Both the position numbers and the translations under genes were made by a program. A DNA stretch of 64,000 bases, taken from Amphibalanus amphitrite (lineage: Eukaryota > Arthropoda > Thecostraca > Balanomorpha > Balanidae). Position 1 is the stretch's first letter, and each line of letters opens with the position of its first letter. Shown piece after piece: positions 28,218-64,000 of the stretch. The stretch is from positions 972,039 to 1,036,038 of the forward strand of contig NW_024881596.1 in NCBI RefSeq assembly GCF_019059575.1, written 5' to 3'. The notes below the pieces were generated by a model. The model was given only the letters and a program-made list of their open reading frames with translations. It did not search any database and was not told the origin of the DNA.

Positions 28218-28220
28218 TGA

Positions 28221-29331
28221 TGTTGCCGACAAACTAGGCAAATGTCGCGCCGCCGATGCCGAGACGAGCCGCCGCCGCGCCGCCCGTCACCTCGCCCCGC
28301 CGGTCCCGCCGCCGAGCCGGGCCGCCGCCCGCCCAGCGGCCACCTGTCGCCGCGCATGGCTTTTTTCTGAGACAGAAGCAATGGGCCATATCGACGCCGC
28401 GAACGGTGGACTGGCGTCCCCCTGTGACCCTGCGACCCGGCTGACCTGTCACCTGTTCCGAATGGGGCAGGCGGGGCCCTGGGCCTGGGAACTGGAGGGG
28501 TGTGTGAGGGGACGCGGCGTGCCGGCCGCCTTTTTTGTGCTCTGTGTCACGACCCCTGTATCGAGTGACATTTTGGCCGTGTATTTGAACCGATACCGGG
28601 CTCTGCTCGGTCTCACTTCACTGTTAGTCGCCGACGAGCTCACTTCGCTCTCAAACGCGGACGGCGGCGCTCTGCTGCCGCTCACGTCTAACTTTTCTAA
28701 CTACTGTGTCTGTGCTGTACTGCTGCCATCTCGCCGTCTTCGGTCAATAGCGAACTCTTCTATTTAGAAGACTGTGTTTAAGTGGTGGTGGTGTGAGTGA
28801 AACCGAAGTGGCGAGTGGAGGAAAGGAGAGCGGCGCGCAGCTCACAGTTCTCACGGTGGCCGGGTCTACTCACTATTCCTATCAATCCTCTGTCATCCTA
28901 CATTATATGCATGCCGCGAGGTGTGCTCCTTATGCGCTCTGAGACGGGCGCTGTTGAACGACCCAACATGCATGCCGCGAGGTGTGCACCTTATGCGCTC
29001 TGAGACGTGCGCTGTTGAACGACCCAACATGCATGCCGCGGGGTGTGCTCCTTATGCGCTCTGAGACGGGCGCTGTTGAACGACCCAACATGCATGCCGC
29101 GAGGTGTGCTCCTTATGCGCTCTGAGACGGGCGCTGTTGAACCTTTGATCCGTAAATTATTCATCCGTGTTTATTTATTTACCGATTAGATACTTCCCTT
29201 CTTCATTATTCGTTCACTGCCTCTATTAATCCTACATCCTCTCACAATTCCCCCCGGCCGCCAACCCGAATGCTGCGAGACGTAACAAACACTATACAGT
29301 CCACACAAGAAAGCCAGAGACGTCCGCAACA
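28221..29331 (+). repeat. 3' LTR of the BEL/Pao element
   Basis: It matches the 5' LTR over its full 1111 bp except for one base I could see (C at 28668 versus A at 22989). It carries the same four 61-bp repeats (28910-29142). The ATCAC duplication follows directly. Confidence 0.93.
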
Positions 29332-29336
29332 ATCAC

Positions 29337-31582: not shown

Positions 31583-32625
31583 TTAACCCTCGCCGGCCGA
31601 GGGGGGGGGGCGGGTGCCGCCCCCCCCCCATAGGGTTTTTTCGCGATAGCTCCGAACACGCTGGCGATAGAGAGCTGAAACTTGGCATACCTGACCTTTG
31701 ATCCAAGCCGCATCTTTTGACACCATTCGCATTTTTGGGTCAGGTCAGGTCACTGACCTATGACGTCATAAGTGAACCTCTGCACGGTCTTCAGATGTAG
31801 CAACTTCGCAACGCCCTCACTGCCAGAGGAGATGTCACAGGGAAATGAAACTTGCAGGATCTAGTATCCATTATGAGTCCCACAACTTGTATATCTCGGA
31901 TTTTTCCTAAAGGTCATATGAGGTCAGGTCATTTTCGTGACCTCACCATTATAAGTCAATGGGGAAAAATGAAAACTGCTATTCTGGCGCCGGGAACGAT
32001 CTCCAACTAGCTCAAGCACACAGAATCGTGATTTTATGCACTCCTTGCAAGTTTAGATGCGTCACTTTTGCAATGTTGACCTTGCGTGACGTCATTTATG
32101 ACGTCATCAAGGTCATATTAGTTTTTCGTCAATAACTCTTGATCAAATTGAGCTAGCGAGTCGGGAAAGCCACCAATGGACTCAGGAAGACCTGCCGAAT
32201 CGAATGATATGCGACATGACCTCTTTCGACCAACTTCGTGACCTGGGGGTGCTGACCTGACCTTGACCTGAGGTCAACACCCCAAGTTGACCTGACCCGG
32301 ACAAAAAGTATATCATTCGACGCGCCTGAGCGAGACGAACACGATGCTGCCAAAATCGGCGCTCTGCGGCCGTTTTTTGCAAAGTTATTCACCAAAAACT
32401 GAACCGTACCTTGGGGCACTTGACCTGACCTCAGAGGTCACCGGTTGACCTAGGACCTTAAAATCGGGTACCAATCTCTGCGTCTCGTAACGGCGCACAC
32501 GCTCATTTTTTCCGCGACGCGCTAGCTCCACCAGGGGCGAAACGGCGAGGGGGGGGGGGTCGTACCCGCCCCCCCCCCCTCGGCCGGCGCGTATGTAGAA
32601 AACCAATAGGTCCGGCGAGGGTTAA
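31583..32625 (+). mobile_element. TTAA (piggyBac-like) MITE, copy B1
   Basis: It begins TTAACCCTCGCCGG and ends CCGGCGAGGGTTAA, with TTAA at both borders. Subterminal G-run/C-run hairpins lie at 31601-31629 and 32549-32579. The 1043-bp body shares recognisable blocks with the A-type copies (tatctcggatttttc, tataagtcaatgggg) and is rich in AGGTCA/TGACCT. Copy B2 at 41892-42852 is the same element in inverse orientation. An 88-codon frame present in both is a by-product of repeat homology. No transposase is present. Confidence 0.82.
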
Positions 32626-35593
32626 GGCTCGACATTGTGTTGTCTACGATTAGACAGCTGATAACTCATTCCCGTACGTCGTAACTCTATAATGACCTTT
32701 GCTTATTGTCACATGTGCGCCGCATTCGCGATTGTTGCCGAATGCCGACGCCTGTTTGGAGGTCAGCCCACTACAGTTGTTATACATATCGAAAAACCGA
32801 TAAACTTTTAGGCGAAAAAGGCACTATTCCAGGCCCATTTTTGATTTTTTTTTGCGATATTAGGTAAAAACAGAAGCTTCTTATCGTAGGAAAAATAAAA
32901 TGGGAAATCTTTCAAAGGTGGCACACTACCTTTAAATTCCCCGCCTGGTTGCTAAGCCCCTCTATCCCTGGTAAGAATATTTCATCCATCATTTCCCGTT
33001 AAAGCCGACCTTAGCAGCCCACTGAACCAATATCCGCGGCGGAGGCGCTCCCAAAGCGATCACAGAGGGGAAGCGGCTGGGGAGCACGAGCTCGGGATGT
33101 CTACCCCCACCTCTGTCCGCGAGACTGTAATCCTGCCGTCATTTAGCGACGATCCGCACAGAACCCCGCGACGCTCCGTTCTTTTCAGAGTGCTGGCGGA
33201 CGGTGAGCCACGGAGAAGACGATGAGCGTGGAATGACAGACGGGAGGGGGAGGGAGTCGATGATGGGGTTTGACGGAGGCCCCACGCCAGACAAGGCTTG
33301 ACCGGAGGCTGCTCAGTTGAGATGGAACTTGAGATACCCGAGATGGGGTGCGGGGTTCAGGCGTGTTTAAAGTTCTCACTTCTACGATTTGTATTCGTTC
33401 TATCCGTGTACATATATTAATTGTTTAGCAAGAGATTCCGGGCCAAAAAAAGAACGAGGTTCCAATACGCAGGGAACTCGATAGTCAACAGCACTTTTGC
33501 CTTCTACCTCGATGATTAAAAATCCTCCACATATCACATGACTTAAACACAATGTTTGTCTTACAAAACATAATCACCCGAGTCCTATCGGGTGGCTGGT
33601 TTTAAACACGTCACTGGAATGTCGCTGTTGATGAACCGATATTGGATCGCCCTATTGGTCGGTCGGCAAACAGCACTCGCCCGTTCCCCGGTCGCGGCGG
33701 CTTCGCTGCCCCTATCAGACCACCATCGATCTGCGGATACCAATCCAGCGCACAATGCAGACGGGCTCATTTGGCATTTATGAAATCGTTTAAATTGGCC
33801 AGCAAGAGATGCGGCCGACACGGAATGACCGAGCACGACGAACGGGGCACGCTCACGTTGCTCTGTTTTCTATCCGAACAATGCAGAGCGGAATCGATGC
33901 TATATGAGCTCACATAAAAACACGGGTCAAACTTATTTATAGGCGCCCTGAATCCCTGACTTTTTACCCCTGAAAATATATCTAAGGATAGATAAAAATA
34001 TATTTGAGTACAAATCGGACATCCTTAACTTTTTGCAAAAAAAAAATATTGTCAAGTCTGTGCCATTCGATATTAAATAAATAAACTTGACAATCACCCT
34101 GATGTCTGAAAAGATAACTGTTTGACCCAACATCATATTCACTTTATCAATAGACCGCTCAACAATAGCAAGATTCATAAATAACCCAACTTTGACTCGG
34201 TACTCGTTAAGTATGACTTAAACATCGTGTCGAACGTTTTCAAAGTCACTGAACTGCAATTTTCCGAGTAAATGTTTAGTAACGATAACATGCATCTTCC
34301 GAAAACGGCCACATTTCACTAAAAGCCGACGTTGCCTTCCTTACGACTGTACTCAACCTGGTCAGACCCTTCAACCCGACATTACCCCGTGACGTCACTA
34401 AACCGCCATACGGTCGGCCGTACCGTCTTCGGCGGCTGTAAACTCGTCCTTATTGGCAATCGTTCCGGGTGCGCTCGGTCCGACGAGCGGGGCATCATGT
34501 CCGAACTGAGCCAATAAACCGTACATGGCTGTCACCGATATCTTCCGGAGACCGCTCTTGGCTCGTATGTGCCGCGGTCGGTCGCCGAATGGTGATTGCC
34601 GTCCGATGAGACGGCACATGACAGATGCCAAGCATCGAGCACAAAACGTCCGAACGTCGCATCGGCCAGCATTGGCTTCCAACGAGAAAGAAACGATGCT
34701 AAAGGCGGATGAACGGACGGTGGCCGCCGGGTTTGGTTGGGGATTGTTTTAAGTGGCATCATTTTGTCGATGAATGGCCTCGTTAGATTTTATGCACCGT
34801 GTAGTTTAGAGCTAGATAACGTTTCAACGGCAGTAAAGAGGACGTAAGCTGTTTGCATCGAGCACTAAATGCTTTTCGCTGAAGAAGTTTCGGAACATAC
34901 GCAGCTACTTAAAAAATATATGTTCCAGAGGCCTATCAAGAGGAAAGTTGGGCGATCCATATGAGGAGCCATTTCGACCCCGACCACCACCGTCCGTCTC
35001 TCGGCCTGTGAGCGCTCCTCCGTCACCGGCGGCAGAGCCACAGTTCAATCGAGGCCGTCCCGCGGGCCCATTCTCTCACCAGCTCGACCAATCTGACGAG
35101 CAGCTGGCGCCCGATTCAATTTGAGAACCATCAAGTTTCAATTCAGCGCCAATCAATCTAGTCGCCATTTTTCAGCCATCGCCGATCGTATCAAGATTTG
35201 GATGGATGGCCTTTGGCACCGCCCGTCACGGTGGCGGTTCGGCCGGCCCTGCCCGGCACTCTGAGGCGACTCAAAGGGGTGCCCTCTCCCCTCCTAACAC
35301 GATCACCGCGACGGCACCGGCAGATGACAGCCGCTCGAGTGACGCCCAGTTAGAGTCGCACAGTGAACAGCGTGAACTCGAATCGAATCACATCAGCCAG
35401 TCGCCCTGTGAACTGTGAATGGGTAGAAGGGTTGCCTCGAGTGGCAAAGGGCCGGGGAACCGGGGAATAGGGGAACGGGGCTCCAGGAAATGAATGGGAT
35501 GGAGGGCAATAATGACGATGAATGTCTAGTTGAAAGTGTCATGCCAGATGATAAGGGTGTGGGTGATAATTATGTAAAACCTCACGAAAAATA
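32626..35593. other. No recognised gene
   Basis: I see only short frames without motifs. 32800-32900 and 33930-34300 are AT-rich; 33000-33400 and 34380-34740 are GC-richer, and no exon with paired splice sites is evident. Just before 35594 there is unremarkable AT-rich DNA. Confidence 0.4.
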
Positions 35594-40231: not shown

Positions 40232-41891
40232 ACAGTCTATTCATCACCGGCTCGACACAAACATATGTAAAACACCCTGCCGGAGGTAACACAGTCCCAT
40301 GCAGGCTGAATCTGTTACCATACTAATGTTGTGTTTGTTCGCATCCGTTTTTTTTGCGCAAAAACCTACCGCAAATATACCTAATCGCTCCAACCTCTAA
40401 GGTCCATGGATTAGCCCTCCAATTCATCAAAATAATTGACTAATTAACCCCGCTGGCACCATCAGCGGTAGCGTGTGTGGCATGTCTCCAGCCAGTGGTC
40501 GTCACAGCCGCCCACACTCGTTAGTAGCTCCTTTTTACACAGCATTCCGCCCCAGTAAAAACTGGTTAAATTACCATCTGTCCGAGCGACGGACGTCAGC
40601 TGACAGTTCAGCGGAGACCGGAGTCTGAATTCCGACACTAGAATGCGTTTGGTTTTTGAGCTCTGACTCTTGCAAATGGATGGGTGGATGTTTACATTCT
40701 TACATCACAATGCATGGTGCTTGATGTAAAAAGGCGCCCGGGGCTAAGACTCAAACGACATCTCTGTACTCACTCGAATATAAGAAGCGATATAGGTATA
40801 ATAAAAACGTAGCTCGAGTATTTCATCAAGCTCTGGCAATAACCAGAACATAATATTATAATTCAGATCCGGCTAGACAGACTGAAATCGTTCATTGCTG
40901 ACATGGCCGTTTCTGTGGAACTTAGGCCTTGTACTCCGAATGTGAAACCAACGTAACGATTATCCATTGCCACTAGACTAGTGATTACGTTACACAAGAG
41001 TTCTGGATTACTTTGATGGACTGACGAAGTTTCCGGATAGAATACCCTAGTGCGGCTGTGGCATAAGATTCCGCTTTATTATTCATCGAATGGTGAAGCC
41101 GCATTTACATGCAGGCCGAGTCTCAAGATTGCAAATACTTTCCCTGAAGTAGACTCCTGAAGCCTGACTTGGATGGTTACCGATATTTAAAAGAATAATT
41201 TTCCAAACAACGCTAGGCAAGGTCAAGGAAACTGCCCTGATGCTGTCGTGAGCAAATAAAAAAGTTCGTTTTCGACTCCTAATTTTTCATTCAACATGAT
41301 GAGACACAAAGGAAAAAAGAAGGGATAAAGAAAAAAGAAAAGAGGAGATGAAAGTGTGGCGGGAAAGGTTGAAAGAGACATATAGAAAGGTAGGTATATA
41401 GTGTAAAGAGAGAAAGTAAAAGAAAACAAACATCGGACGCTCAAAGAGCTACCATCACGTAAATGAGTCGGTGAGTCAAGAAAAGTCGGTGAAATGGTGT
41501 TACACGTCCACAGAGTAGAAACAAAGAAAACACCAAGCAGCCAAGCAGCCGAAACGTCCGACAAAACCTTGAACGCCTGAAAACAAAACTTCTGGTGAAG
41601 CTGTATCCCGGTTTACAGCAGGTCAATGATGAGAGTGGATGCTCTGTCGTTTCCTGGAAAGTTTGGGCAAGTTTGCTGTACAACGCGATGGCCAAATACT
41701 GTTTTATGAGGGTCAAGACTTTCCGGGGAGATTAGGAAATGTATACTGAGGTAAGGGTGTGCGGCTGTGTAACAGAATCGGGCGCGTGTTAAGGTCATGG
41801 GAAAGTCGGTCAAGGTTGGAGACTGTGTGATGAAATTTCGAGGACATCATAAGAACGAGGTGGCAAAGGACTAAAACAGGGTCGGTGACTC
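40232..41891. other. No recognised gene
   Basis: A purine-rich stretch (41270-41440) gives long minus-strand hydrophobic frames by composition. I see no splice-supported exon or transposon end. Confidence 0.4.
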
Positions 41892-42852
41892 TTAACCCTC
41901 GCCGGACCTACTGGTTTTCTACATTACGCGCCGGCCGAGGGGGGCGGGGGCGGGTACGAACCCCCCCCCCTCGCCGTTTCGCCCCTGGTGGAGCTAGCGC
42001 GTCGCGGAAAAAACGAGCGTGTGCGCCGTTACGAGACGCAGAGATTGGTACCCGAGTTTAAGGTCCTAGGTCAACCGGTGACCTCTGAGGTCAGGTCAAG
42101 TGCCCCAAGGTACGGTTCAGTTTTTGGTGAATAACTTCGCAAAAAATGGCCGCAGAGCCGCAATTTTGGCAGCATCGTGTTCGCCTCGCTCCGGCGCGTC
42201 GAATGATATACTTTTTGTCCGGGGCAGGTCAACTTGGGGTGTTGACCTCAGGTCAAGGTCAGGTCAGCACCCCCAGGTCACGAAGTTGGTCGAAAGAGGT
42301 CATGTCGCATATCATTCGATTCGGCAGGTCTTCCTGAGTCCATTGGTGGCTTCCCCGACTCGCTAGCTCAATTTGATCAAGAGTTATTGACGAAAAACTA
42401 ATATGATCTTGATGACGTCATAAATGACGTCACGCAAGGTCAACATTGCAAAAGTGACGCATCGAACCCTGCAAGGAGTGCATCAAATCACGATTCTGTG
42501 TGCTTGAGATAGTTGGAGATCGTTCCCGGTGCCAGAATAGCAGTTTTCATTTTTCCCCATTGACTTATAATGGCGAGGTCACGAAAATGACCTGACCTCA
42601 TATGACCTTTAGGAAAAATCCGAGATACAAAAGTTGTGAGAATCATAATGGATACTAGAGGTTCACTTATGACGTAATAGATCAGTGACCTGACCTGACC
42701 CAAAAATGCGGTTGGTGTCAAAAGATCCGGCTTGAACCAAAGGTTAGATATGCCAAGTTTCAGCTCTCTATCGCCAGCGTGTTCGGAGCTATCGCGAAAA
42801 AAAAAACCTATGGGGGGCACCCCGCCCCCCCCCCTCGGCCGGCGAGGGTTAA
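41892..42852 (-). mobile_element. TTAA (piggyBac-like) MITE, copy B2, inverted relative to B1
   Basis: TTAA borders both ends (41892-41895, 42849-42852), with CCCTCGCCGG inside the left and CCGGCGAGGG inside the right. Read on the minus strand it follows B1 at 31583-32625 closely throughout but is about 80 bp shorter. The missing part includes the tcttcagatgtagcaacttc region, which I could not find here. G-run/C-run hairpins are again subterminal (about 41939-41970 and 42811-42834), with shorter G-runs. Confidence 0.82.
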
Positions 42853-47370: not shown

Positions 47371-49604
47371 GTATTCCCCTGTCGCTCCCGTCGTGCGGCG
47401 CTGGCAGGCTCATTACTCCAATAACGCTCCCACGTATGCATGAGCCGTCTCCGGCCGTCTCCTCCAGACCTGTGGCTGCCCCGGTGGACGTCAGACGCCA
47501 GCGGCCACGACCTTTCTGCCGGGGCCAATCAAGGATCACGGCTGTGCCGACTGCCGTCCGGCCGCCGACGGTCGGTCGTAAAGATAGGGGGTGGTGGCGA
47601 CCCGGTGACCTGGTCCGTGGCGGCCGTCTGTGCCCCTATTGATCGCGGTTCGTCGGCAGCGGCAGCCGACTGTTCGGACGACTGTTGGGACCACTGTCGG
47701 ACGCCGCACCGGGCCGGTGTGGTGTGGTGGTAGTCTGCTGGTCTATGCCGGTCACGCCTGGGAGGCCAGCCGCACCCATAATGCGCCAGATAGAGCCCCA
47801 GCTCATGAAACAAGAGCAGATGGCGGACCCAGACACCGTCGAATGAGTCGAAAGCATGGCGAGAAGTTAAAGAGTTCAAATTCAAACTCCGGCCATGCAT
47901 ACGGACGAGTGCAACTCTCACTCTCACTCACTCATCCACCATGAACCCACTGCGCAGTCCACGAGAACGGAAGTCATGCAGCTCCTCTGGAATCCTGCAG
48001 CACAGAAATCCCAGCTTACACGTCCCTGCACCTGCATTTTTACCTTCCTAATTCCACGACCATTCTGTAGTCCTTTCTAGGAGACCGCCACGCTGACGAA
48101 ACCCAGGATCACCTACACGATCTACACAATTCCCTGTACTACCGACCTGACCTGGCGGCCGATCAGACTGCGAGCATCCCCGCTCGACGGCGAGTGGTGC
48201 GTCGATACATCCCGGCGTCGTGTCGGACAGGATTAGCGGCACTCAGTAGGCGTTTGATCTCCGTATTACCGACGTTGAGCCGGCCGGGCCGACTCGGCGG
48301 ATGCGGAACTCCGCGGAACTCCGCTCCGACACAGCGGAGATGAGCGAGTGGCGTGTGTGTGCACGCGTCATTTGCGTGCAGTGTTTCTGCGTGAGAACGC
48401 AGCGTTGGTGGACTGCGTGGGAGGTCGATCGGCTAAATTACCTACTGATGCGTTAGGGCGAGCGTGTCTTTTGTGGAGGTTTGCGGGCTTGTTTGCAGTT
48501 GTTCTTTGTTTTGTGTTGCTGGGAGTGAGTGACGCTATGGATGGACTGATATTGAGAGACTTTCGACGACCATGGTGCCTTGAGGTCGAGTGTGGGCAGC
48601 CCCAGGCGTAGTTTATTGCCAAACGGAGTAACGCCATTCTCCAATCCCCATTCTCCTCCCCAGCTTCACTTGTTCTTCTCCCTAGCTTTCTGCATCTCTT
48701 CCATCCCTTTCATTCTAACATAAGATATATGCTCGTACAATAGGGATATACAGTTGGAGATCCTGATTACGGGCAGATAAAACCAAACTTTTTTCGTTTA
48801 ATCATGTTTTTCATTACTGCACTTGTACGTTGTCCCATGGAATGATGAGCTATGGCGCCTATTATCATGTCAGTATGTATCGGCCAAATCACAGCCCCAA
48901 CACCAATAAATACATAAGTAGGGGGTGGGTGAGGTCACATTCCATAGCGGAGCATGGTGCTGCGTTTTTGCGCGCCTTTCAGTGAATGACGTGCTCGCTG
49001 TGAGTTCTGGCGGCGTGACCTGGGGGAGCGTCACGTGACACATGATACAGTTTATTTAGTTACCTCGTAACGCCTGAGTGTTGATGGAATGCAACAGGAT
49101 TTGTGGTGTCACTCTCACTGAATTGGAAGAACATGTGAAAATTACCAAAAGATACCAACCCATTCTGCAAAATAAACTAGATAAAGCTGAAAAAGATTTC
49201 GTCATACCTAACCTCGTTTGTTATAGATTATGAAATGAGTTGACGTTTAATTTCGCACATAGTTAGCTTACAGAGTTGGTCATTTAAGTACAGTTTATGA
49301 ACTACTGAAAAGATTATGAAATCTAACGGGGGCCATTTCAAGTTCATAGGAGCTGTCAGGTTAATAAATGTTCACATGAGCGGCCTGTATTTTCAGCTTC
49401 AGTACGTTTCTTCATTAGGTATAAACAGAGATAAATGAAGTAATTAGACGTTGCATTAATTGAACAACATAATAAAGCTGACGTTTACAAAATGCATCTA
49501 GCATGTCAAATTTTGGCAATTGAACAGCAAATCCAACTTCTTAGTAAAACGTTTTCTTTTTCTCGGCTTTGTGCAAGTCTATTATATATTCCCGACCGGG
49601 GCTG

Positions 49605-49707
49605 GGAAAATGCGTTTTATTCACCGAGGTTATTGTGCGGAGGACCGAGTGCCGGTAGGCACGAGGTCCGTAGCAAAAAACCGAGGTGAATAAAACTGCA
49701 TTTTCAC
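49605..49707. repeat. Short foldback hairpin
   Basis: gaaaatgcgttttattcaccgagg-type sequence on the left (49605-49632) pairs with cgaggtgaataaaactgcattttc on the right (49676-49707). An inner pair, ggaccgagtgcc/ggcacgaggtcc, extends the stem. It resembles small MITE hairpins and abuts the palindrome that follows. Confidence 0.7.
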
Positions 49708-50315
49708 ATTTAAGAGAGTTTAGCGTAGTGAGGAAAATCATAATGATGATTATGAGCATATTTTTAATTGACCGAATCCTCAATGTAATCTGAATAAAAT
49801 GACAAATAGCAAAAATTCGGGTATATTCGATCACAGATCTTTGTCAACCGATACCAGCAGGCGCCACAATTGTAGATGTCAAAATACTTTTTGTTCAGTA
49901 CACATGCACAACAGTAGATATGTCCTCAGGGAAAAGATTTATGGTTGGTAATTCTAAAAGTCGCAGCAGTCAAACATAATGTACAGGGAAAAACCTATAC
50001 ACAAGATTAAAGTGCGTGTGTGCCTAAGCATATACGAATTTAAGATGAAACAATACTTGCGGATCAATTAGATGGGCAGCAAGTTACACTCTTACCCTGG
50101 ACAAAGTTAGGGCACATATAACATTTACACTGTGCGAAACAATTAAATGAGCATATTATACATAAATGAACATTATATACGTAAATGAGCATACATGAGC
50201 GTATTATCATACTATGACTACTCATACCCTGGACAAAGTTAGGGCGCATACAGCATCTATGAAAACGATCTACACAATCACTTTTTAACGTGGTGAGCTC
50301 TTGAAAAATGCTAAC

Positions 50316-51036
50316 CTACTTTGGAAGTAGCTGCCAGGAGGTGCTGTTATCGTTAATAGCTGGCATCCTATCGCGGATGGTGATGGATTCAGCAATCCTC
50401 CTGTCAGCTTCATCCTTACATTTGCGTACGATGCGTGCTATCAGAGTCGTGTCCGTTGGGGTCAGGTCTGGGTGCTCGTGCGCGAAATGTTCACCCATTG
50501 GTGTGCCTAGTTTCTTGTTGGTGCCATCTCGTAAGTGTTCGTTATATCGCAGTCAGGGGCGTCGACGCGTAAGGAAAACTGGTCCGACTTTTTCTCGGGG
50601 GGCCCCCACCGGTGGGGGCCCCCAGGTGTCGCGAGGGCCCCGCGAGGCGCAGCAGGGCCCCCGCGAGCCGCAGCGGGGGGCCCCCGTTGCCGCAGCAGGG
50701 GCCCCCGTGGCCGCAGCAGGGCCCCCCGAGAGCCCCAACAGGGCCCCCCGCGGCCGTAGAAGGGGACCCCGCGGGCCGCAGCAGGGCCCCGCGGTGTCTA
50801 GCAGGGCCCCAGAGGCGCAGCAGGGCCCCCGCGGTCTTTAGCAGGGCCCCCCGAGCCGCAGTAGGGCCCCCGCGGTCTGCAGCAGGGGCCCCCGCGAGCC
50901 ACAGCAGGGCACCGCCTAGTCGAAAAAGTGGTCCGACTAGTCGGAAAAGTCGGACCGGTGTCGACGCCCCTGATCGCAGTCGTATTGGCCTACCGCTTTC
51001 TCCTACGTAAGTTTGGTTGCACGGTAGGCCAATACG
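50316..51036 (-). pseudogene. Penelope-like GIY-YIG endonuclease C-terminal fragment, interrupted by a hAT-like element
   Basis: On the minus strand the frame reads CNQTYVGESGRPIRLR, is broken by the 419-bp insert at 50554-50972, and continues YNEHLRDGTNKKLGTPMGEHF to a stop at 50316-50318. The YVGESGRP...R..EH pattern is characteristic of the GIY-YIG domain at the C-terminus of Penelope-like elements, where it nicks target DNA. Only about 100 codons remain and no reverse transcriptase is nearby. Family assignment is from motif memory. Confidence 0.7.
50554..50972. mobile_element. 419-bp hAT-like MITE, copy 1
   Basis: Ends are CAGGGGCGTCGAC and its reverse complement, with an exact 8-bp duplication ATCGCAGT (50546-50553 and 50973-50980). 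Subterminal motifs include gtccgactttttc and its inverse. The centre is a run of diverged units of the GCAGCAGGGCCCCCGCG type. The CAGGGGCGT start is shared with the 6.4-kb element at 1948, suggesting related transposases. Confidence 0.85.
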
Positions 51037-51274
51037 ACTGCGATATAACGAACACTTACGAGATGGCACCAACAAGAAACTAGGCACACCAATGGGTGAA
51101 CATTTCGCGCACGAGCACCCAGACCTGACCCCAACGGACACGACTCTGATAGCACGCATCGTACGCAAATGTAAGGATGAAGCTGACAGGAGGATTGCTG
51201 AATCCATCACCATCCGCGATAGGATGCCAGCTATTAACGATAACAGCACCTCCTGGCAGCTACTTCCAAAGTAG
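51022..51274 (+). pseudogene. Penelope-like GIY-YIG C-terminal fragment, right arm, uninterrupted
   Basis: GRPIRLRYNEHLRDG runs through DLTPTDTTLIARIVRKCKDE to a TAG at 51272-51274, in the opposite orientation to the left-arm copy. The reading frame is intact for about 83 codons but lacks an in-frame start and the N-terminal GIY half. Its 3' flank carries the same paired ctaactttgtccagggta motifs as the left arm. Confidence 0.7.
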
Positions 51275-51805
51275 GTTAGCATTTTTCAAGAGCTCACCAC
51301 GTTAAAAAGTGATTGTGTAGATCGTTTTCATAGATGCTGTATGCGCCCTAACTTTGTCCAGGGTATGAGTAGTCATAGTATGATAATACGCTCATGTATG
51401 CTCATTTACGTATATAATGTTCATTTATGTATAATATGCTCATTTAATTGTTTCGCACAGTGTAAATGTTATATGTGCCCTAACTTTGTCCAGGGTAAGA
51501 GTGTAACTTGCTGCCCATCTAATTGATCCGCAAGTATTGTTTCATCTTAAATTCGTATATGCTTAGGCACACACGCACTTTAATCTTGTGTATAGGTTTT
51601 TCCCTGTACATATTATGTTTGACTGCTGCGACTTTTAGAATTACCAACCATAAATCTTTTCCCTGAGGACATATCTACTGTTGTGCATGTGTACTGAACA
51701 AAAAGTATTTTGACATCTACAATTGTGGCGCCTGCTGGTATCGGTTGACAAAGATCTGTGATCGAATATACCCGAATTTTTGCTATTTGTCATTTTATTC
51801 AGATT

Positions 51806-52308
51806 GCAACATGCAACATGACGTCATCTCTCTGCTGACGGCAGCATAGGCTGACGAGCTGTGCTGCCAGGAGAAAGCAAGTGCAGAGATGCCAAGCCGT
51901 CAGCAGAAGCCATAAGTGACGCATTTAGACACTGGTAGTGGCGCATGTAAACAAATCACGTGCCACATTTTTACTAAGTACTGCAGATAAATGAAAATTC
52001 GACACTGTATTGACGCTTTTCACGTTATTTTGTTTCATAATTATTTATCAATGTAAGAAGACTAAATATTTCCATTGCATATTATATGCAAATATTTTGA
52101 TAATATACCTAACTATTAAAATATTGTATTAATAAAGGACATATATATGAGACGATATATTTGTTTACAAAGCCACATTTGTAGACAGTCAGCCACTGCT
52201 GACATTTCTCATCAGCCGAATGTGTACAACTCCGTCAGCCAGAAACGGTGGGTGGAGCCTATTTCGGCTGACAACAGCACAACAGCTGAATGTGTACAGG
52301 CCTAATAT
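51806..52308. other. Unique spacer between the two palindromes
   Basis: This 503-bp stretch is not shared with the arms. It starts gcaacatgcaacatgacgtc and is AT-rich in the middle. Both ends are rich in gctgac/cagctg-type motifs (ggctgacgagctgtgctgcc at left; ggctgacaacagcacaacag at right). It may be a separate small element, but I could not define its ends. Confidence 0.4.
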
Positions 52309-52643
52309 GTACAGGGAAAAACCTATACACAAGATTAAAGTGCGTGTGTGCCTAAGCATATACGAATTTAAGATGAAACAATACTTGCGGATCAATTAGA
52401 TGGGCAGCAAGTTACACTCTTACCCTGGACAAAGTTAGGGCACATATAACATTTACACTGTGCGAAACAATTAAATGAGCATATTATACATAAATGAACA
52501 TTATATACGTAAATGAGCATACATGAGCGTATTATCATACTATGACTACTCATACCCTGGACAAAGTTAGGGCGCATACAGCATCTATGAAAACGATCTA
52601 CACAATCACTTTTTAACGTGGTGAGCTCTTGAAAAATGCTAAC

Positions 52644-53364
52644 CTACTTTGGAAGTAGCTGCCAGGAGGTGCTGTTATCGTTAATAGCTGGCATCCTATC
52701 GCGGATGGTGATGGATTCAGCAATCCTCCTGTCAGCTTCATCCTTACATTTGCGTACGATGCGTGCTATCAGAGTCGTGTCCGTTGGGGTCAGGTCTGGG
52801 TGCTCGTGCGCGAAATGTTCACCCATTGGTGTGCCTAGTTTCTTGTTGGTGCCATCTCGTAAGTGTTCGTTATATCGCAGTCAGGGGCGTCGACGCGTAA
52901 GGAAAACTGGTCCGACTTTTTCTCGGGGGGCCCCCACCGGTGGGGGCCCCCAGGTGTCGCGAGGGCCCCGCGAGGCGCAGCAGGGCCCCCGCGAGCCGCA
53001 GCGGGGGGCCCCCGTTGCCGCAGCAGGGGCCCCCGTGGCCGCAGCAGGGCCCCCCGAGAGCCCCAACAGGGCCCCCCGCGGCCGTAGAAGGGGACCCCGC
53101 GGGCCGCAGCAGGGCCCCGCGGTGTCTAGCAGGGCCCCAGAGGCGCAGCAGGGCCCCCGCGGTCTTTAGCAGGGCCCCCCGAGCCGCAGTAGGGCCCCCG
53201 CGGTCTGCAGCAGGGGCCCCCGCGAGCCACAGCAGGGCACCGCCTAGTCGAAAAAGTGGTCCGACTAGTCGGAAAAGTCGGACCGGTGTCGACGCCCCTG
53301 ATCGCAGTCGTATTGGCCTACCGCTTTCTCCTACGTAAGTTTGGTTGCACGGTAGGCCAATACG
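52644..53364 (-). pseudogene. Penelope-like GIY-YIG fragment, second copy of the left arm
   Basis: Same sequence and same hAT-like interruption as 50316-51036, displaced by 2328 bp. I saw no coding difference between the copies. Confidence 0.7.
52882..53300. mobile_element. 419-bp hAT-like MITE, copy 2
   Basis: Matches copy 1 at 50554-50972, including the ATCGCAGT duplication on both sides. It arose by duplication of the surrounding palindrome rather than by a new insertion. Confidence 0.85.
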
Positions 53365-53602
53365 ACTGCGATATAACGAACACTTACGAGATGGCACCAA
53401 CAAGAAACTAGGCACACCAATGGGTGAACATTTCGCGCACGAGCACCCAGACCTGACCCCAACGGACACGACTCTGATAGCACGCATCGTACGCAAATGT
53501 AAGGATGAAGCTGACAGGAGGATTGCTGAATCCATCACCATCCGCGATAGGATGCCAGCTATTAACGATAACAGCACCTCCTGGCAGCTACTTCCAAAGT
53601 AG
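53350..53602 (+). pseudogene. Penelope-like GIY-YIG fragment, second copy of the right arm
   Basis: Same as 51022-51274 with the same stop, displaced by 2328 bp. This copy's 3' flank continues farther (to 54172), matching the outermost left arm. Confidence 0.7.
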
Positions 53603-54708
53603 GTTAGCATTTTTCAAGAGCTCACCACGTTAAAAAGTGATTGTGTAGATCGTTTTCATAGATGCTGTATGCGCCCTAACTTTGTCCAGGGTATGAGTAG
53701 TCATAGTATGATAATACGCTCATGTATGCTCATTTACGTATATAATGTTCATTTATGTATAATATGCTCATTTAATTGTTTCGCACAGTGTAAATGTTAT
53801 ATGTGCCCTAACTTTGTCCAGGGTAAGAGTGTAACTTGCTGCCCATCTAATTGATCCGCAAGTATTGTTTCATCTTAAATTCGTATATGCTTAGGCACAC
53901 ACGCACTTTAATCTTGTGTATAGGTTTTTCCCTGTACATATTATGTTTGACTGCTGCGACTTTTAGAATTACCAACCATAAATCTTTTCCCTGAGGACAT
54001 ATCTACTGTTGTGCATGTGTACTGAACAAAAAGTATTTTGACATCTACAATTGTGGCGCCTGCTGGTATCGGTTGACAAAGATCTGTGATCGAATATACC
54101 CGAATTTTTGCTATTTGTCATTTTATTCAGATTACATTGAGGATTCGGTCAATTAAAAATATGCTCATAATCATGCATTTTCACAGCCCAAGGTTGGGAA
54201 GAGATTTACCACATGCCGTACCGGCCTTGTGCCGTACCGGCGCAACAGTTAATATTACGAGTATATTCATTTGATATATATTATTATATTCTTAATATTG
54301 TGTTAATATTATATTAATACTATGATCATATTTATAGTCACCGTGATTATTTTTTGTGTTTTTCATTATTGGGCTGCGTTGAGTATGAAAGATGAAATTT
54401 CCTACTTCCCCCTTATTTAGGGTTTGAAAAGGCTGACGGCTGAGGATGAAGATTGTGAAGCGTCAGAAGTTAGAATAAAGATATGGAGTCCACTTCCAGC
54501 AGGGGTGAGGAAACCGTGAGGAAAACCGAAAATTGGGTGAAACGCTGAATCAAACGCGTCTTAGATCCCAGCTGGAACAATATCCAAATGTTTCATTGTG
54601 GCTCGTTAAGATGCTTCGCGCATTTAAAGTGTTCGTTTTTTGCGTGCATTATGTTGTAATAATGAGTACGTTCGTATAATTGCATGCAGATTGATATCAA
54701 TCTCGTAC

Positions 54709-55903
54709 ATGCAGATTCCGGACAATTTCAAATCGGCTCAAAATGGGCATATAGACCAAACAGGATACGCTGATCACGAATCCGAAGTCCGTTCCGCGGC
54801 ACATATGAAACTTTTCCCGGAATTTCCGAATTCCGAATCTGCATGCAGATTCCGGACAATTTCAAATCGGCTCAAAATGGGCATATAGACCAAACAGGAT
54901 ACGCTGATCACGAATCCGAAGTCCGTTCCGCGGCACATATGAAACTTTTCCCGGAATTTCCGAATTCCGAATCTGCATGCAGATTCCGGACAATTTCAAA
55001 TCGGCTCAAAATGGGCATATAGACCAAACAGGATACGCTGATCACGAATCCGAAGTCCGTTCCGCGGCACATATGAAACTTTTCCCGGAATTTCCGAATT
55101 CCGAATCTGCATGCAGATTCCGGACAATTTCAAATCGGCTCAAAATGGGCATATAGACCAAACAGGATACGCTGATCACGAATCCGAAGTCCGTTCCGCG
55201 GCACATATGAAACTTTTCCCGGAATTTCCGAATTCCGAATCTGCATGCAGATTCCGGACAATTTCAAATCGGCTCAAAATGGGCATATAGACCAAACAGG
55301 ATACGCTGATCACGAATCCGAAGTCCGTTCCGCGGCACATATGAAACTTTTCCCGGAATTTCCGAATTCCGAATCTGCATGCAGATTCCGGACAATTTCA
55401 AATGGGCTCAAAATGGGCATATAGACCAAACAGGATACGCTGATCACGAATCCGAAGTCCGTTCCGCGGCACATATGAAACTTTTCCCGGAATTTCCGAA
55501 TTCCGAATCTGCATGCAGATTCCGGACAATTTCAAATCGGCTCAAAATGGGCATATAGACCAAACAGGATACGCTGATCACGAATCCGAAGTCCGTTCCG
55601 CGGCACATATGAAACTTTTCCCGGAATTTCCGAATTCCGAATCTGCATGCAGATTCCGGACAATTTCAAATCGGCTCAAAATGGGCATATAGACCAAACA
55701 GGATACGCTGATCACGAATCCGAAGTCCGTTCCGCGGCACATATGAAACTTTTCCCGGAATTTCCGAATTCCGAATCTGCATGCGGATTCCGGACAATTT
55801 CAAATCAAAATCAATTTCAAAATCAAATACCTGAAATTTCAAATCGGCTCAAAATGGGCATATAGACCAAACAGGATACGCTGATCACGAATCCGAAGTC
55901 AGA
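54709..55903 (+). repeat. 134-bp tandem array, left arm
   Basis: Units start with atgcagattccggacaattt at 54709, 54843, 54977, 55111, 55245, 55379, 55513, 55647 and 55781. Most differ by a base or two. The last unit is altered (gcggattccgg) and carries an internal duplication of the caaatttcaaatc-like stretch at about 55800-55840. Each unit contains gaattc and gatcacgaatccg. Confidence 0.93.
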
Positions 55904-58190
55904 TTCGCAGATTCGGAATTCGGAAATTCCGGGAAAAGTTTCATATGTGCCGCGGAACGGACTTCGGATTCGTGATCAGCGTATCCTGTTTGGTCTATAT
56001 GCCCATTTTGAGCCGATTTGAAATTGTCCGGAATCCGCATGCAGATTCGGGATTCGGAAATTCCGGGAAAAGTTTCATATGTGCCGCGGAACAGACTTCG
56101 GATTCGTGATCAGCGTATCCTGTTTGGTCTATATGCCCATTTTGAGCCGATTTGAAATTGTGCGGAATCTGCATGCAGATTCGGAATTCGGAAATTCCGG
56201 GAAAAGTTTCATATGTGCCGCGGAACGGACTTCGGATTCGTGATCAGCGTATCCTGTTTGGTCTATATGCCCATTTTGAGCCGATTTGAAATTGTCCGGA
56301 ATCTGCAATCTGCATGCAGATTCGGAATTCGGAAATTCCGGGAAAAGTTTCATATGTGCCGCGGAACGGACTTCGGATTCGTGATCAGCGTATCCTGTTT
56401 GGTCTATATGCCCATTTTGAGCCGATTTGAAATTGTCCGGAATCTGCATGCAGATTCGGAATTCGGAAATTCCGGGAAAAGTTTCATATGTGCCGCGAAA
56501 CGGACTTCGGGTTCGTGATCAGCGTATCCTGTTTGGTCTATATGCCCATTTTGAGCCGATTTGAAATTGTCCGGAATCCGCATGCAGATTCGGAATTCGG
56601 AAATTCCGGGAAAAGTTTCATATGTGCCGCGGAACGGACTTCGGATTCGTGATCAGCGTATCCTGTTTGGTCTATATGCCCATTTTGAGCCGATTTGAAA
56701 TTGTCCGGAATCTGCATGCAGATTCGGAATTCGGAAATTCCGGGAAAAGTTTCATATGTGCCGCGGAACGGACTTCGGATTCGTGATCAGCGTATCCTGT
56801 TTGGTCTATATGCCCATTTTGAGCCGATTTGAAATTGTCCGGAATCCGCATGCAGATTCGGGATTCGGAAATTCCGGGAAAAGTTTCATATGTGCCGCGG
56901 AACGGACTTCGGATTCATGATCAGCGTATCCTGTTTGGTCTATATGCCCATTTTGAGCCGATTTGAAATTGTCCGGAATCTGCATGCAGATTCGGAATTC
57001 GGAAATTCCGGGAAAAGTTTCATATGTGCCGCGGAACGGACTTCGGATTCGTGATCAGCGTATCCTGTTTGGTCTATATGCCCATTTTGAGCCGATTTGA
57101 AATTGTCCGGAATCTGCATGCAGATTCGGAATTCGGAAATTCCGGGAAAAGTTTCATATGTGCCGCGGAACGGACTTCGGATTCGTGATCAGCGTATCCT
57201 GTTTGGTCTATATGCCCATTTTGAGCCGATTTGAAATTGTCCGGAATCTGCATGCAGATTCAGAATTCGGAAATTCCGGGAAAAGTTTCATATGTGCCGC
57301 GAAACAGACTTCGGATTCGTGATCAGCGTATCCTGTTTGGTCTATATGCCCATTTTGAGCCGATTTGAAATTGTCCGGAATCCGCATGCAGATTCGGAAT
57401 TCGGAAATTCCGGGAAAAGTTTCATATGTGCCGCGGAACGGACTTCGGATTCGTGATCAGCGTATCCTGTTTGGTCTATATGCCCATTTTGAGCCGATTT
57501 GAAATTGTCCGGAATCTGCATGCAGATTCGGAATTCGGAAATTCCGGGAAAAGTTTCATATGTGCCGCGGAACGGACTTCGGATTCGTGATCAGCGTATC
57601 CTGTTTGGTCTATATGCCCATTTTGAGCCGATTTGAAATTGTCCGGAATCCGCATGCAGATTCGGGATTCGGAAATTCCGGGAAAAGTTTCATATGTGCC
57701 GCGGAACGGACTTCGGATTCGTGATCAGCGTATCCGGTCTATATGCCCATTTTGAGCCGATTTGAAATTGTCCGGAATCCGCATGCAGATTCGGAATTCG
57801 GAAATTCCGGGAAAAGTTTCATATGTGCCGCGGAACGGACTTCGGATTCGTGATCAGCGTATCCTGTTTGGTCTATATGCCCATTTTGAGCCGATTTGAA
57901 ATTGTCCGGGATCTGCATGCAGATTCGGAATTCGGAAATTCCGGGAAAAGTTTCATATGTGCCGCGGAACGGACTTCGGATTCGTGATCAGCGTATCCTG
58001 TTTGGTCTATATGCCCATTTTGAGCCGATTTGAAATTGTCCGGAATCTGCATGCAGATTCGGAATTCGGAAATTCCGGGAAAAGTTTCATATGTGCCGCG
58101 GAACGGACTTCGGATTCGTGATCAGCGTATCCTGTTTGGTCTATATGCCCATTTTGAGCCGATTTGAAATTGTCCGGAATCTGCATGTAC
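55904..58190 (-). repeat. 134-bp tandem array, right arm (inverted)
   Basis: About seventeen units in reverse orientation, each from cagattcggaattcgg to aattgtccggaatctgcatg. One unit near 57735 lacks five bases (tgttt) and another near 56318 has a six-base gcaatct duplication. Units alternate between ccgcatgc and ctgcatgc at their junctions. Confidence 0.93.
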
Positions 58191-58900
58191 GAGATTGATA
58201 TCAATCTGCATGCAATTATACGAACGTTAATGAGTAGGTACTCTGACCATGTTCTGCAGCAATAAATACATTGGCATTGGAACGATACCTACCCTTGTTA
58301 AGTTGAATTACGTTGACAGCGAAAGTAAGTGAAAACGCCGTCACTTAATTTTGCTCACTTCTGCTGTTGCTGTTAGTGAACACACAATCCGAAAATATCT
58401 TCTATGGATTTGGTTCTTCCGCTCAGAATATTCAGTAAAACTTTGTCTGGGAAAATCAAAAAGCCCTAGGGCCGAATCGTTTCCCAAATACCTTCAACAT
58501 TAGCCGAGGCGGGCCGAAGCCCTTTCCCAAATGCACGTGCTAATGTTAAAGGGATATCTCGGCATGTGGTAAAAGTTATACTTTTAACTGCAATATGAGG
58601 GCTCCCCGAACACTAACTATGCATAACCTAAGTCCCACGGGCACTATGGATGTTCTGCAGTACTGGATCTTGATGCAGGCACGCCTTGAGTTTCAGTCTA
58701 GCATCACTTCCGAGAATCGCACTACATCGAACTTACAAATTTTCGAACCGAATCTGACTGAGTCGTGCCGGTATAGCTGACGGAGGATTTCAAACACCTC
58801 AGTTGCATGCATACTTTGATCCGCTCTGAGGAGATATATGAAACGGTATGCGTTTTATTTAACCTGCCTTTTAACGGTGTCTTTTTAATGTAAAATGGTT

Positions 58901-59076
58901 TTACTGTATGCCTGGCCTATTCAAATACATTAGCCAGAGGGGTGTGGTAATAACTGGTGTAAGCAAATTGACCACGGTCAAAAATGCATTACTGTATGCC
59001 TGGCCTATTCAAATACATTAGCCAGAGGGGTGTGGTAATAACTGGTGTAAGCAAATTGACCACGGTCAAAAATGTA
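58901..59076. repeat. Tandem duplication of an 88-bp unit
   Basis: ttactgtatgcctggcctat starts at 58901 and again at 58989. The two copies are almost identical through accacggtcaaaaatg. Confidence 0.9.
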
Positions 59077-59566
59077 TTACCAGAATGCACTTAAGCCAAC
59101 ATTTTGGGATGGTCTCGTTCCTAAGTCGGCTAAGAGCTTCAGTCCAGAAAATAAATTTTTCGTTGGCATACAGTAAAATACATACCAAACTCGGCCGGTG
59201 ATAAATTTTCAAGACCTCAGTCCTTACTGATTTTTGAACTCGGCCTTCGGCCTCGTTCAAAAATCCAGTAAGGACCTCGGTCTTGAAAATTTATTTACAC
59301 CGGCCTCGTTCAGTATTATATATTACCAGAATGCACTAAAGCCAACATTTTGGGATGGTCTCGTTCCTAAGTCGGCTAAGAGCTTCGGTCCAGAAAATAA
59401 ATTTATCGTTGGCATACAGTAAAATACATACCAAACTCGGCCGGTGATAAATTTTCAAGACCTCAGTCCTTACTGATTTTTGAACTCGGCCTTCGGCCTC
59501 GTTCAAAAATCCAGTAAGGACCTCGGTCTTGAAAATTTATTTACACCGGCCTCGTTCAGTATTATA
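59075..59566. repeat. Tandem duplication of a 246-bp unit with internal hairpin
   Basis: Units start tattaccagaatgcact at 59075 and 59321. Each contains a long hairpin of about 43 bp per arm, from aaattttcaagacc through ctcggcc to ggcctcg and back to ggtcttgaaaattt. Copies differ at only a few bases. The CTCGGCC core resembles the cgagg-type hairpin at 49605, so they may be related MITEs. Confidence 0.88.
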
Positions 59567-60650
59567 TATCACTGATCAGCCTCGCGCCCCGTTGCCATTA
59601 GCGATCGGTCCCACTTCAGTATGCATTGTGCACATCGCTAATGTAATTCTAATGATCCCAGGCACTAAAAACGTTCCTGATTGTTTGGCTTTCATTAAGT
59701 GATTAGGCACCAATGCCACTTATGAGTTATGCTAATGATCTGTCAGCGACCAGCCGCTATAGTGCAGCGATTGGAACTTCCGTGACCGTGTGTCTATGCT
59801 AAAAACGCCAGAGATGGAAAGACTTCCAGATGACATGAATTGTGAACTCTCTCATGCTCGTATAACCTCATTGTTAGCGGAAACGAACTTACGAACTTAC
59901 CACTGCACTCGAGTGAGAACATCAATCTCTAGATTGGCTCCAATTTGTTGCAGCGTTCGCGCAGTGCGGCGGCAAATTTGCATTTTTAAGTATTCAGCCT
60001 TCCACGATCCATCATTTCCACTGACTGGCTGCCGGTGGCCTGACTTCTATCAAACTGCTCCCAGGAGGTTCGACTTCTCCTTCCCTACCCTGCCTTCCCT
60101 CCCTTCCCCAAGTCATCTCGTCCCCGGCAGTGTCTCACGCCCGGGGACTTCCCTTCCGTGTCAGGGGGGCCAAAGTTTTCGTCTAAACGGGGTCCGCTTA
60201 TGCACGCAAGGGCAACTTTGTGATCGACCGGCATGTTTTCTGAGCCAAGCGTCTGTGACGAAATTGGGTGTCCAACTCGACTAGATTGGCTGTCAAGTTT
60301 GCAGCGCATCCGGCTATTCAGGAATCAACAATGTGTATCGTATTTGATTGCAAGCTTCAGAAAATAGAGGGCTGAATTCAAGGTAGAGTGGAGCCAGCAG
60401 ACAATGGGTCGAACTATGGCACATAGCTGGAGTCAACATTTTTTTTTTTTTTTTACTAGAAGAGAGCGGTTATTGAAGACGGTAACAACCACAAAAAGGG
60501 TGGTTTTTGTTGATCAAGATGTCATATTAAGCTGGGGTTTCTGTGAGATTCTAATGCATTACCCTATCAACAAACACATAAAGCAATACACATTGCGCGC
60601 CTCTCTAAACACCATTCCGCGTTTCTTACTGTCTTTGCTGTTTGTTTCAG

Positions 60651-61420
60651 ACCCGGGCCCGGCCGTGCAGGTGGAGCTGGTGCCTCCAGACGCACAGAAA
60701 GCGGTCGCCAACGGTGTGGTACCCCCAGCCAACGGTCACGTCCCCAACGGACTGGTAGCCTCAGGTCGACCTCCGCCGCAGCCGGGCCCTCACGGCGCCG
60801 GTCCGAGGGTCTACCAGGACACTCGGGTCCAGCTGACAGGGACCTTCCAGCCGGCTACATCCCCCAGCGCTGGCTTCTTCAACCGGCCTGCAGCTCAGAA
60901 CGGCGGCGCCCAGCCGGCAGCTGGAGGGGAGGTGTCCAGAGCGACTGCCGGTCCTCCGCCGCATGTTCAGCAGCAGGGCGCCTACCAGCAGCGAGAGGCG
61001 CCAAGGCAGACGGTCAGCTGGGGGCCTCCTGACCCTGCTGGAGGCTGGCCTGCCTCTGACGCGACGCGGCCGACCTCAGGTCACGCTGGAGGTCCACCAG
61101 CGGCGTCTCTGCGGCACCCTTACCAGCCTAGCCCGAGCAAACAACCCGTCCCTCCAAGCTCAGCGGCGGCGACGAACGGGGCTCAGCAGGGCGCGGCAGT
61201 CACCTCCCGACCAGACGGGAGTGGTCCTGGCACTGGAACTAATCGTGCGACCCTGCAGTGGGGAGCTCAGGTGCCCCCGCCGGCCTACTCACTGCCCCGT
61301 CAGCAGCAGCAGCAGCGGCCGGCCGAGCAGGCGCCGCCTTCCACTGCGGCCACTCTGCCCGCGGGGACGGGTCACGACCGGTCACGACCTGGCGAGCCGC
61401 CGACAGCAGCGGGGGTCACG
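60651..61420 (+). CDS. Predicted internal exon, Pro/Gln/Ala-rich disordered protein
   Basis: A textbook acceptor (tttgctgtttgtttcag) ends at 60650 and a donor (GTCACG|gtgagt) follows 61420. The 770-bp exon is open throughout, starting at the second base of a codon and ending at a codon boundary. It encodes about 257 residues that are rich in Pro, Gln, Ala and Gly and almost certainly disordered. Features include repeated NG dipeptides (VANGVVPPANGHVPNG), a PPAY motif at codons 61277-61288 that could bind WW domains, and a run of five Gln. GC content is much higher than in the flanks. Its phase matches the exon at 46457-46523. No folded domain is visible and I cannot name the gene; a transcriptional or scaffold protein would fit. 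Later exons are presumably beyond the window. Confidence 0.65.
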
Positions 61421-62829
61421 GTGAGTACCGAATGCACATCGACACATCCTGGTATCGAACAACCCCAGAGTTATGCAGCGCCGCTCGCCGAGCCTCTGAG
61501 CCGCCAAAGCGCCGGCTGTGAACCGCTCGTTATCTGTCGTGACTCTCGGTATTTGCGTGATCAAATGTCCGCCCGACTGCCTGATCGTCGGCATTATTCA
61601 AAATCCGCTGGCAAAAACTGCGTCATATTTCAGCGGGTCCTCCGTCAGGGCGGTTAGCGGTGGACTGTTTTTACCGAGTTAGGATTCCGCCTCCAAGAGG
61701 AGGCTCTTCGACTCGAAGTGGCGGCGCGGAGGTAGGGCTTCGTTCGCGTTGTGCTCGAGTAAGACGATCCTCCCCAGGGAGAGAGATTAGAGAGGGCAGC
61801 AAGAGGCTCAGGTAACTCCGGAAATGCCTGTTGGAGCTCCGGGCGGGGAGTGGGAGGGGCAGGGAGAAGGAGAGAGGGGCAGGGGGAGGAGGGATGGAGC
61901 AGAGAGGAGGAATAGACAGCCGTGACGGGCGCCCGGGGCAGCCGAGAGAAATCTCAAGACATATCGACCACTCATCCCAGTCGGACCCGGGCTGCATCGC
62001 GTGGTGAAGCGCGTGCTCCGTGGCATGGCAATATCCCATCACGACTGCCGGCCCCACCGAGTATTACACACCGCCCACCGTTCCGTCCATCCCGGCCACA
62101 AATCGGAGCCGGCGTCTCGCTGAGTGATTCTAACCCACGCTGTGCGGCCACCGTGAAAAATCACCGACCGCCGCCACTCCAGCCGTTCCACCACCGTGAC
62201 CGCCCAGTGGAGGCTCTCATACCTACAAACCAGCCACGGCTGTGCTTTGAACGCTACGTGCCGGCCAGATGACTAGACGGAAGGCGTGTGCCGTGCCTGA
62301 AGGGCCTCCCGCCGTCCCGCACGTGCCGCCCGCGCCACGAGCCAACACGTGCGCGCTGCCACGGGCACGTGCTTCGTGGGCGTGCCGAGGCGCCGACGTG
62401 ACTCGCCCAGTCAAGACGTTTTTGTGCGCCACTGAACCGAGGCTGGTGGGGCCGGTCAGACTCGGTTGAGGTCAGTCGTGTGCGCCCGGACGGCTTTCTC
62501 GTGCCGCGAGACGTGGTGGCCTCTGGTCGAGAGACAGAAGCCTAGCCAGAAGCGTCGGTAACTCGTTAGCGCAAGCGAGCTGACTTCTGTCAGAATTCCT
62601 GGCGACAAGCCGGCTCGACCTTAATCACCAATGAAAGCATCTTGAGTGAGCTCGGTCAGACTGCCAGGGAAAATGGGTTCGGTCAAACCAACAGGTCGCA
62701 TGTGTACGGGAGTAAGTAAGTAAGTACGTTAGACCTCCAGGGAGCACGTGTTCTAATTCTGATCACCTAAGAGCACGTGGTTTGGTAGCAGGTTGGTTCG
62801 ATCGGGTCTCCAGAGAAATACGGACCCGG

Positions 62830-62945
62830 AAGGAGCACTCGGGTCCTCTCTGGACCTCTCCCAGTCCTCTCCTGGTCCTCTTCCAAACCTCTCCCAGTCA
62901 TCTCCGAGTCCTCTCCGGATCTCTCCGGAGTTTCGCCCGACCCGG
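62830..62945. repeat. Degenerate CCTCTCC-type minisatellite
   Basis: cctctcccagtcctctcctgg and variants repeat about every 16-20 bases (agtcctctccgg, ggatctctccgg). Frames on both strands across it are by-products. Confidence 0.75.
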
Positions 62946-63299
62946 AGTGGAGGGGCGGCGCTCGGCGGCGCGGAACTGAGCTGCACCCCGTATTGACTGG
63001 ACGCCCGGTCGGCTGGCCCGCCGCCACCCTCCCACCCAATTGGCCGTCCCAGCGTCGTTTGCGACACGCTCGACTGCGCCTTCTCCGCTCGAGAGACGCG
63101 CGAGAGACCCTCGGCGGCTCCACGCACACGCGTCCGACGGCCCGCGAGGTATTTACGCGGATATGTGCGCTGATGCGTGCGATGCACGCCACGGGGTCGC
63201 ACCGCCGCGCTGGGAGGTGTTTTGGCATGCCGGAATGGCGGATGCTATGGATACTCCTTGAGCTATTTTATTCTGATGCCTCTACAACGCATAGGCAAT

Positions 63300-63326
63300 T
63301 GTATGTATGTATGTATGTATGTATTT
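63300..63326 (+). repeat. GTAT tetranucleotide microsatellite
   Basis: About six consecutive GTAT units. Confidence 0.95.
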
Positions 63327-64000
63327 ACGATCATGGGCGATCCACACATGGCGTGGCGATTACTGCCCAATTCTCGTATGCATCACCCGTCATGAAATTC
63401 ACTTATCTAGATCACCTTCGTTAGCGGTGCGTTGATATCTCCGTTGATATCTCAGTTTGGAATCTGCGTCCCAAATCTGTGCCCCCGATCACCAGCCTGT
63501 CCTCACAGGCCGTGGCGCCGATCGGGGGATGGACTCGGCTCGGCCGGTCGGGTTTTTGTCAGCAGGGGCGGACGTCGGGTGGTACGATTAATGACCCCGG
63601 AGGACGGCTGATGATAGTGGTGATGGTAGCGGCAGGATGGCGATGAAGGGGTGGTGTGTGGGGAGAACAGGGGACTCAGGGGTGGGGTAGGAGTTCTGGC
63701 CACGCACAATGGTGTCAGCGGTTTTCACATATGTAAGTTGAGCTCACAAAAGTTTGCCTGGCTACAGTATGCAGATGCCGAGATTGGGCAGACCCGTAGT
63801 TTCAGGTTGGCGTGATGCGTTCGTAGTAATTATATGTGCTCTCCCTGACTGGCAGAGTAGTTAGAAGATGACAGCAGAATAACCCGCACGGTTATGTAGT
63901 CTGGCTGGCCCAGATACCTCGTGCAGACCTGCTCCTGGCATAGAGACGAACCCACCTCCAATATAGAGGATGAATAGATGCCCCATTTCGGTCCGGCCCC

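Follow-up and report, generated by a model that had tools for sequence, protein, structure and literature searches.

The question raised by this locus is whether a head-to-head array of 134-bp tandem units in Amphibalanus amphitrite represents a piece of satellite DNA (satDNA) or a mobile element. The array lies at positions 54668-58227 (3560 bp) of a stretch of 64,000 nucleotides (NCBI RefSeq assembly GCF_019059575.1, contig NW_024881596.1, positions 972,039 to 1,036,038 of the forward strand); this whole stretch is what was analyzed and is referred to hereinafter as the window. Our data point to a single insertion event involving a Foldback-type DNA transposon, non-autonomous and of the cut-and-paste kind, the arm lengths of which were altered by tandem duplication, and we assign to this interpretation a probability of about 85%. 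A preliminary description of the same DNA, made from the sequence alone, had proposed a Foldback-like anatomy and the transposition of the array as a unit; on the basis of this one copy, the proposal is supported by the inverted ends, by a direct repeat abutting them, and by the unrelated flanks.

The element is made up of two inverted arms, the long terminal inverted repeats (TIRs) representing most of its length, as in the Foldback class. Its termini read ACGTTCG...CGAACGT, and the outer inverted repeats, running in register from A54668 and T58227 inwards, extend over 317 bp with zero mismatches; the repeat search retrieved the segments 54668-55159 and 57736-58227 as an inverted pair of 492 nt, 100% complementary (rounded value). 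The mirror-image borders of the preliminary description were thus confirmed, with the start moved to position 54668. Each end consists of a 40-bp border: the left one (54668-54707, + strand) embeds a 16-bp palindrome (AGATTGATATCAATCT) and a 12-mer (TGCATGCAGATT) also present at the unit junctions, and the right one (58188-58227, - strand) is its exact reverse complement. Probing the rest of the window with the unit and the border (E up to 1) did not retrieve any further match, the unit being confined to the element. The exact unit and border patterns did not match any of the viral contigs, nor did the unit pattern match any of the bacterial and archaeal ones, a result that is uninformative for a eukaryotic host; a search of the literature text with letter words taken from unit and border did not match any paper.

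Immediately outside the two ends lie two copies of the 8-mer TAATGAGT, at positions 54660-54667 and 58228-58235 (both on the + strand). With the ends fixed as ACGTTCG...CGAACGT, direct repeats of 2-14 bp were checked by shifting both ends together, and this 8-mer was the only one touching both element ends without offset. Identical 8-mers at a spacing of 3400-3700 bases were found in 115 out of 5,044,350 trials (about 2e-5), the estimate being based on 100 spacings and on window positions 1-54000. The preliminary description had reported a 9-bp target duplication; the abutting direct repeat stands, whereas its length is better accounted for by 8 bp, the ninth base being base one of the inverted repeat. 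The 9-mer TAATGAGTA does occur exactly twice in the window (at 54660 and 58228), with no occurrence on the opposite strand; the sequence reads ...CGAACGT and then TAATGAGTA at the right end, and TAATGAGT and then ACGTTCG... at the left one. Assuming 9 bp leaves one surplus T at the right end, and assuming 8 bp turns the A that follows the right copy into a one-in-four coincidence. A duplication of 8 bp is considered more likely than one of 9, since the symmetry of the inverted repeat requires the A to be part of it. As in the Foldback class, the element is bordered by a putative target duplication, that is, the 8-bp direct repeat TAATGAGT.

Between the two termini, the element embeds nothing but the 40-bp borders and the 134-bp units; a middle domain is absent, and the tandem repeats sit within the inverted repeats, which is a further feature of the Foldback class. 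The tandem period is 134, with matches of 99% and 97%. The left arm harbors eight intact units (54708-55779, + strand), seven of which are mutually identical while one differs by a single substitution, followed by an innermost, rearranged unit of 127 bp that includes the orientation switch (55780-55906, + strand, delimited by eye). According to the same inspection by eye, this unit carries a AATTTCAAATC-like insertion of about 39 extra bp and stops near unit position 82. The right arm (55907-58187, - strand) harbors 17 units in the opposite orientation, three of which are of odd length (129, 141, and 135 bp). The arms are about 1.2 and 2.3 kb long. The 9 + 17 head-to-head units proposed beforehand were recovered, the left count being eight intact units plus the rearranged one, and so was the single switch of orientation, then placed at about 55904, which by eye falls at about 55900-55907; the apparent number of units depends on the assembly.

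The two arms differ in the degree of variation among their units: one substitution was found in the eight intact left units vs. 20 variants in the 17 right units, insertions and deletions counting as single events and the additional C at the end of right-arm unit R17 being disregarded. If variants were evenly spread, the binomial probability of such a deficit in the left arm would be 0.003, although shared variants are not independent events. The distribution of variants along the right arm was then compared at different distances between units; this comparison was confined to the 17 right-arm units, with the nine units of the left arm and, again, the additional C of R17 set aside, relied on variants transcribed by hand, and was based on a unit alignment from which the 25-base border pieces had been excluded. 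Units lying six positions apart have six variants in common, compared to a shuffle mean of 1.6, and this count was matched in three out of 20,000 shuffles at lag six and in 0.9% of them at any of the 11 lags. Consistently, the mean number of differences between units reaches its minimum, 1.45, at lag six and ranges from 1.94 to 2.34 at the other ten lags between 1 and 11. Some variants are private to one unit, such as the T to C change at position 10 of unit R3. The simplest reading of these data is that the right arm grew by duplication of six-unit blocks (804 bp) and that a single unit type recently spread through the left arm. The idea, already put forward in the preliminary description, that the unequal arms reflect later expansion or contraction is thus supported by the arm-specific variation and by the six-unit periodicity, both of which are modest signals.

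The consensus unit junction is an 18-bp palindrome (GAATCTGCATGCAGATTC) occurring 15 times, every time inside the element. Border and unit are also linked by their common 12-mer TGCATGCAGATT; out of 20,000 random 40-mers taken from window positions 1-54000, 11 had an equally long word in common with the unit. The palindromes may represent candidate transposase-binding sites, and the following sequence of events can be envisaged. A transposase supplied from elsewhere would recognize the 40-bp borders and, as in the Drosophila element Galileo, would probably bind additionally at the 18-bp palindrome that is recreated by the unit junctions. Insertion through an 8-bp staggered cut would then duplicate TAATGAGT, in keeping with the anatomy of the two ends. 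The 134-bp units, which have the 12-mer in common with the borders, would have originated beside them, within the inverted repeats, and the number of units would shift by unequal exchange or block duplication in each arm independently, a process consistent with the pattern of variants described above.

The nature of the mobilizing transposase concerns a finer version of the Foldback-type interpretation, not an alternative to it. We consider the chances evenly balanced that it was a Mutator-like one (from a Mutator-like element, MULE) rather than a P-, hAT-, or Merlin-like one, or another type. The target duplications of MULEs are 8-11 bp long, usually 9 bp; on the other hand, 8 bp suits other superfamilies as well. 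The MULE version is not helped by the Pfam analysis of the six frames of positions 49001-64000, in which stops were read as X in whole frames and which revealed neither a transposase nor any other match above the curated cut-offs. Three matches below them (E up to 0.05), namely DUF5556, YSIRK_signal, and KRIT1_FRMD8_FERM_C, were dismissed as chance, being under the curated cut-offs with no passing stretch. Outside these positions, the Pfam coverage comes from a scan of 10 of the 24 listed frames of at least 150 amino acids; over the window, ARAGORN detected no tRNA and Rfam gave no match at the gathering score. A Mutator-like transposase has been reported for the element Tm1 (PMC3169594) and proposed for the element Tetris (PMC4079207), whereas Galileo, which looks alike, has a P-type transposase (PMC3573991).

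If taken as inverted arms, the flanks of the element show an identity of 21% over 300 bp, which is no better than chance, and their mutual matches (in 467 and 473 bases) are no longer than 14 bases. These unrelated flanks, together with the lack of any unit or border match elsewhere in the window, imply that what the borders delimit was inserted as a unit and is, within this window, neither a portion of a larger array nor an inverted duplication. Closely alike units of 134 bp, a periodicity of six units, and a head-to-head change of orientation would also occur in satellite arrays, and one might therefore think of a fragment of an inverted satDNA array moved by repair or rearrangement, without any transposase; we regard this as improbable, since a mirror-image, non-repeat border of 40 bp on both sides and an abutting 8-bp repeat are unexpected for a chance fragment. 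An assembly or sequencing artefact, with the inverted arms deriving from a fold-back read or from a palindromic misjoin, appears very improbable even though near-identical inverted arrays are hard to assemble and a second long palindromic region lies close by (49742-54179), because the flanks, which would have been duplicated too, are not inverted copies of one another, the arms are unlike in both length and variants, and the direct 8-bp repeat falls outside the palindrome.

Some points weigh against the interpretation of the locus as a Foldback-type insertion. The element is present in the window as a single copy, with no empty site, second insertion, or autonomous partner, and, to our knowledge, the ACGTTCG ends fit no superfamily terminus. 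Where inverted arrays are almost identical, an assembly may get their copy number wrong. The lag-six signal is a modest one, built on few variants and spotted post hoc, and in four of the 11 pairs at this lag the two units remain separated by three or four events. Lastly, the six-frame family scan covers 15 of the 64 kb and was run on undivided frames in which stops were written as X.

Other repeats are present in the window. The second palindromic region (49742-54179) ends 488 bp before the element; its arms (49742-50554 and 53364-54179) are 99.6% alike over 816 bp, and the segment 49979-51808 is directly duplicated at 52307-54136 (99.9%). The arms resemble, by eye, the end of what we take to be a Penelope-type GIY-YIG frame; among the Pfam results for the frames of positions 49001-64000, no match supported such a frame in this region. 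Each copy harbors a GC-rich insert of 419 bp (50554-50972 and 52882-53300) with the ends CAGGGGCGTCGACGC and GTGTCGACGCCCCTG and, on both sides of both copies, ATCGCAGT; presumably, these inserts represent a hAT-type miniature element with its 8-bp duplication. On the other side of the element, 673 bp downstream, two short sequences of 88 and 246 bp, lying side by side in the segment 58901-59572, are each present twice in tandem (98%), and the 246-bp stretch is partly palindromic. Farther away, an element with long terminal repeats (LTRs), presumably of the BEL/Pao type, lies at about 22542-29334; its direct repeats of 1114 bp are 99.8% alike and contain a 61-bp tandem repeat. Its frame 23739-27983, the one scanned, showed a Pfam match with DUF1759 and a second one, under the cut-off, with an aspartyl protease, and a reverse transcriptase was not recognized in it. 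This element contributes to the eukaryotic look of the window. An inverted pair (31860-32626 and 41891-42659) is 96.5% alike over 769 bp and, over short stretches of about 84-98 bp (74-83% alike), is related to the segments 3898-5050 and 5813-6990, which in turn are direct copies of one another (86% alike).

Tandem units in the arms, duplications of 8-10 bp, or unequal arms have already been described in foldback elements. The inverted repeats of Drosophila FB and of sea urchin TU are built of short tandem units, with duplications of 9 and 8 bp, respectively; they differ from the element described here in their shorter units and in the middle domains of some copies. The target duplication of Galileo is 7 bp long. 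Tetris from Drosophila virilis and D. americana (PMC4079207) is a non-autonomous element with long inverted repeats that contain a variable number of units of about 220 bp and with target duplications of 8-10 bp; its flanking domain and its unit have a stretch of 37 bp in common, and its units also build satellite arrays outside the element. Compared by description and not by sequence, the two elements share the tandem units in long inverted repeats, the abutting duplication, and a unit sharing sequence with the end region; however, the flanking domain of Tetris measures up to 866 bp and is accompanied by an inner and a middle domain, whereas only 40-bp borders and 134-bp units are found here. 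The left TIR of two Tetris alleles contains three and four units, respectively, beside which the 26 units of the present element are many; the TIRs of Tetris reach 1,735 bp (PMC4079207), and beside them the present arms, about 1.2 and 2.3 kb long, do not justify the term "giant" of the preliminary description.

Galileo, a Drosophila element of the P superfamily, has long, internally repeated inverted repeats, and some of its copies (PMC3573991, PMC3688188) consist only of two TIRs, which may differ in unit number within a copy, as do the arms here. The THAP domain of its transposase binds sites in the tandem repeats, according to binding assays (PMC3688188). Unlike the present element, Galileo has a known transposase, and its repeat is of about 210 bp, with up to three copies in the F subfamily of D. 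mojavensis (PMC3573991, PMC3688188). Tm1 of root-knot nematodes (PMC3169594) has composite inverted repeats with tandem units, includes both non-autonomous and transposase-coding members, and shows duplications of 8-10 bp, a range to which that of our element belongs, 9 bp being the commonest length (45 out of 53 complete elements). Its units are of 13-15 bp and its terminal motifs asymmetric, in contrast to the symmetric ends and the roughly tenfold longer unit found here. The present element is set apart by details, namely very short borders, the lack of a middle domain, a unit of 134 bp, and a high number of units.

The seeding of satDNA by such elements is not a new route: it is what the Tetris paper argues for (PMC4079207), and a 2025 review lists the expansion of arrays inside transposons as one known route to satellites (PMC12628747). 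A further and rather doubtful possibility is that, in the element of A. amphitrite, an evolution of the satellite type (a higher-order repeat of six units in one arm, recent uniformity in the other) took place between ends recognized by a transposase, and that a ready-made satellite array can thus be moved as one unit. The locus represents a clean case of a transposon nearly all of which is a tandem array, its borders being intact and abutted by a direct repeat. Alone, it contributes one more family and no new principle; if the border recurred at many sites, this genome would join Tetris as a second case well suited to testing a foldback origin of satellites.
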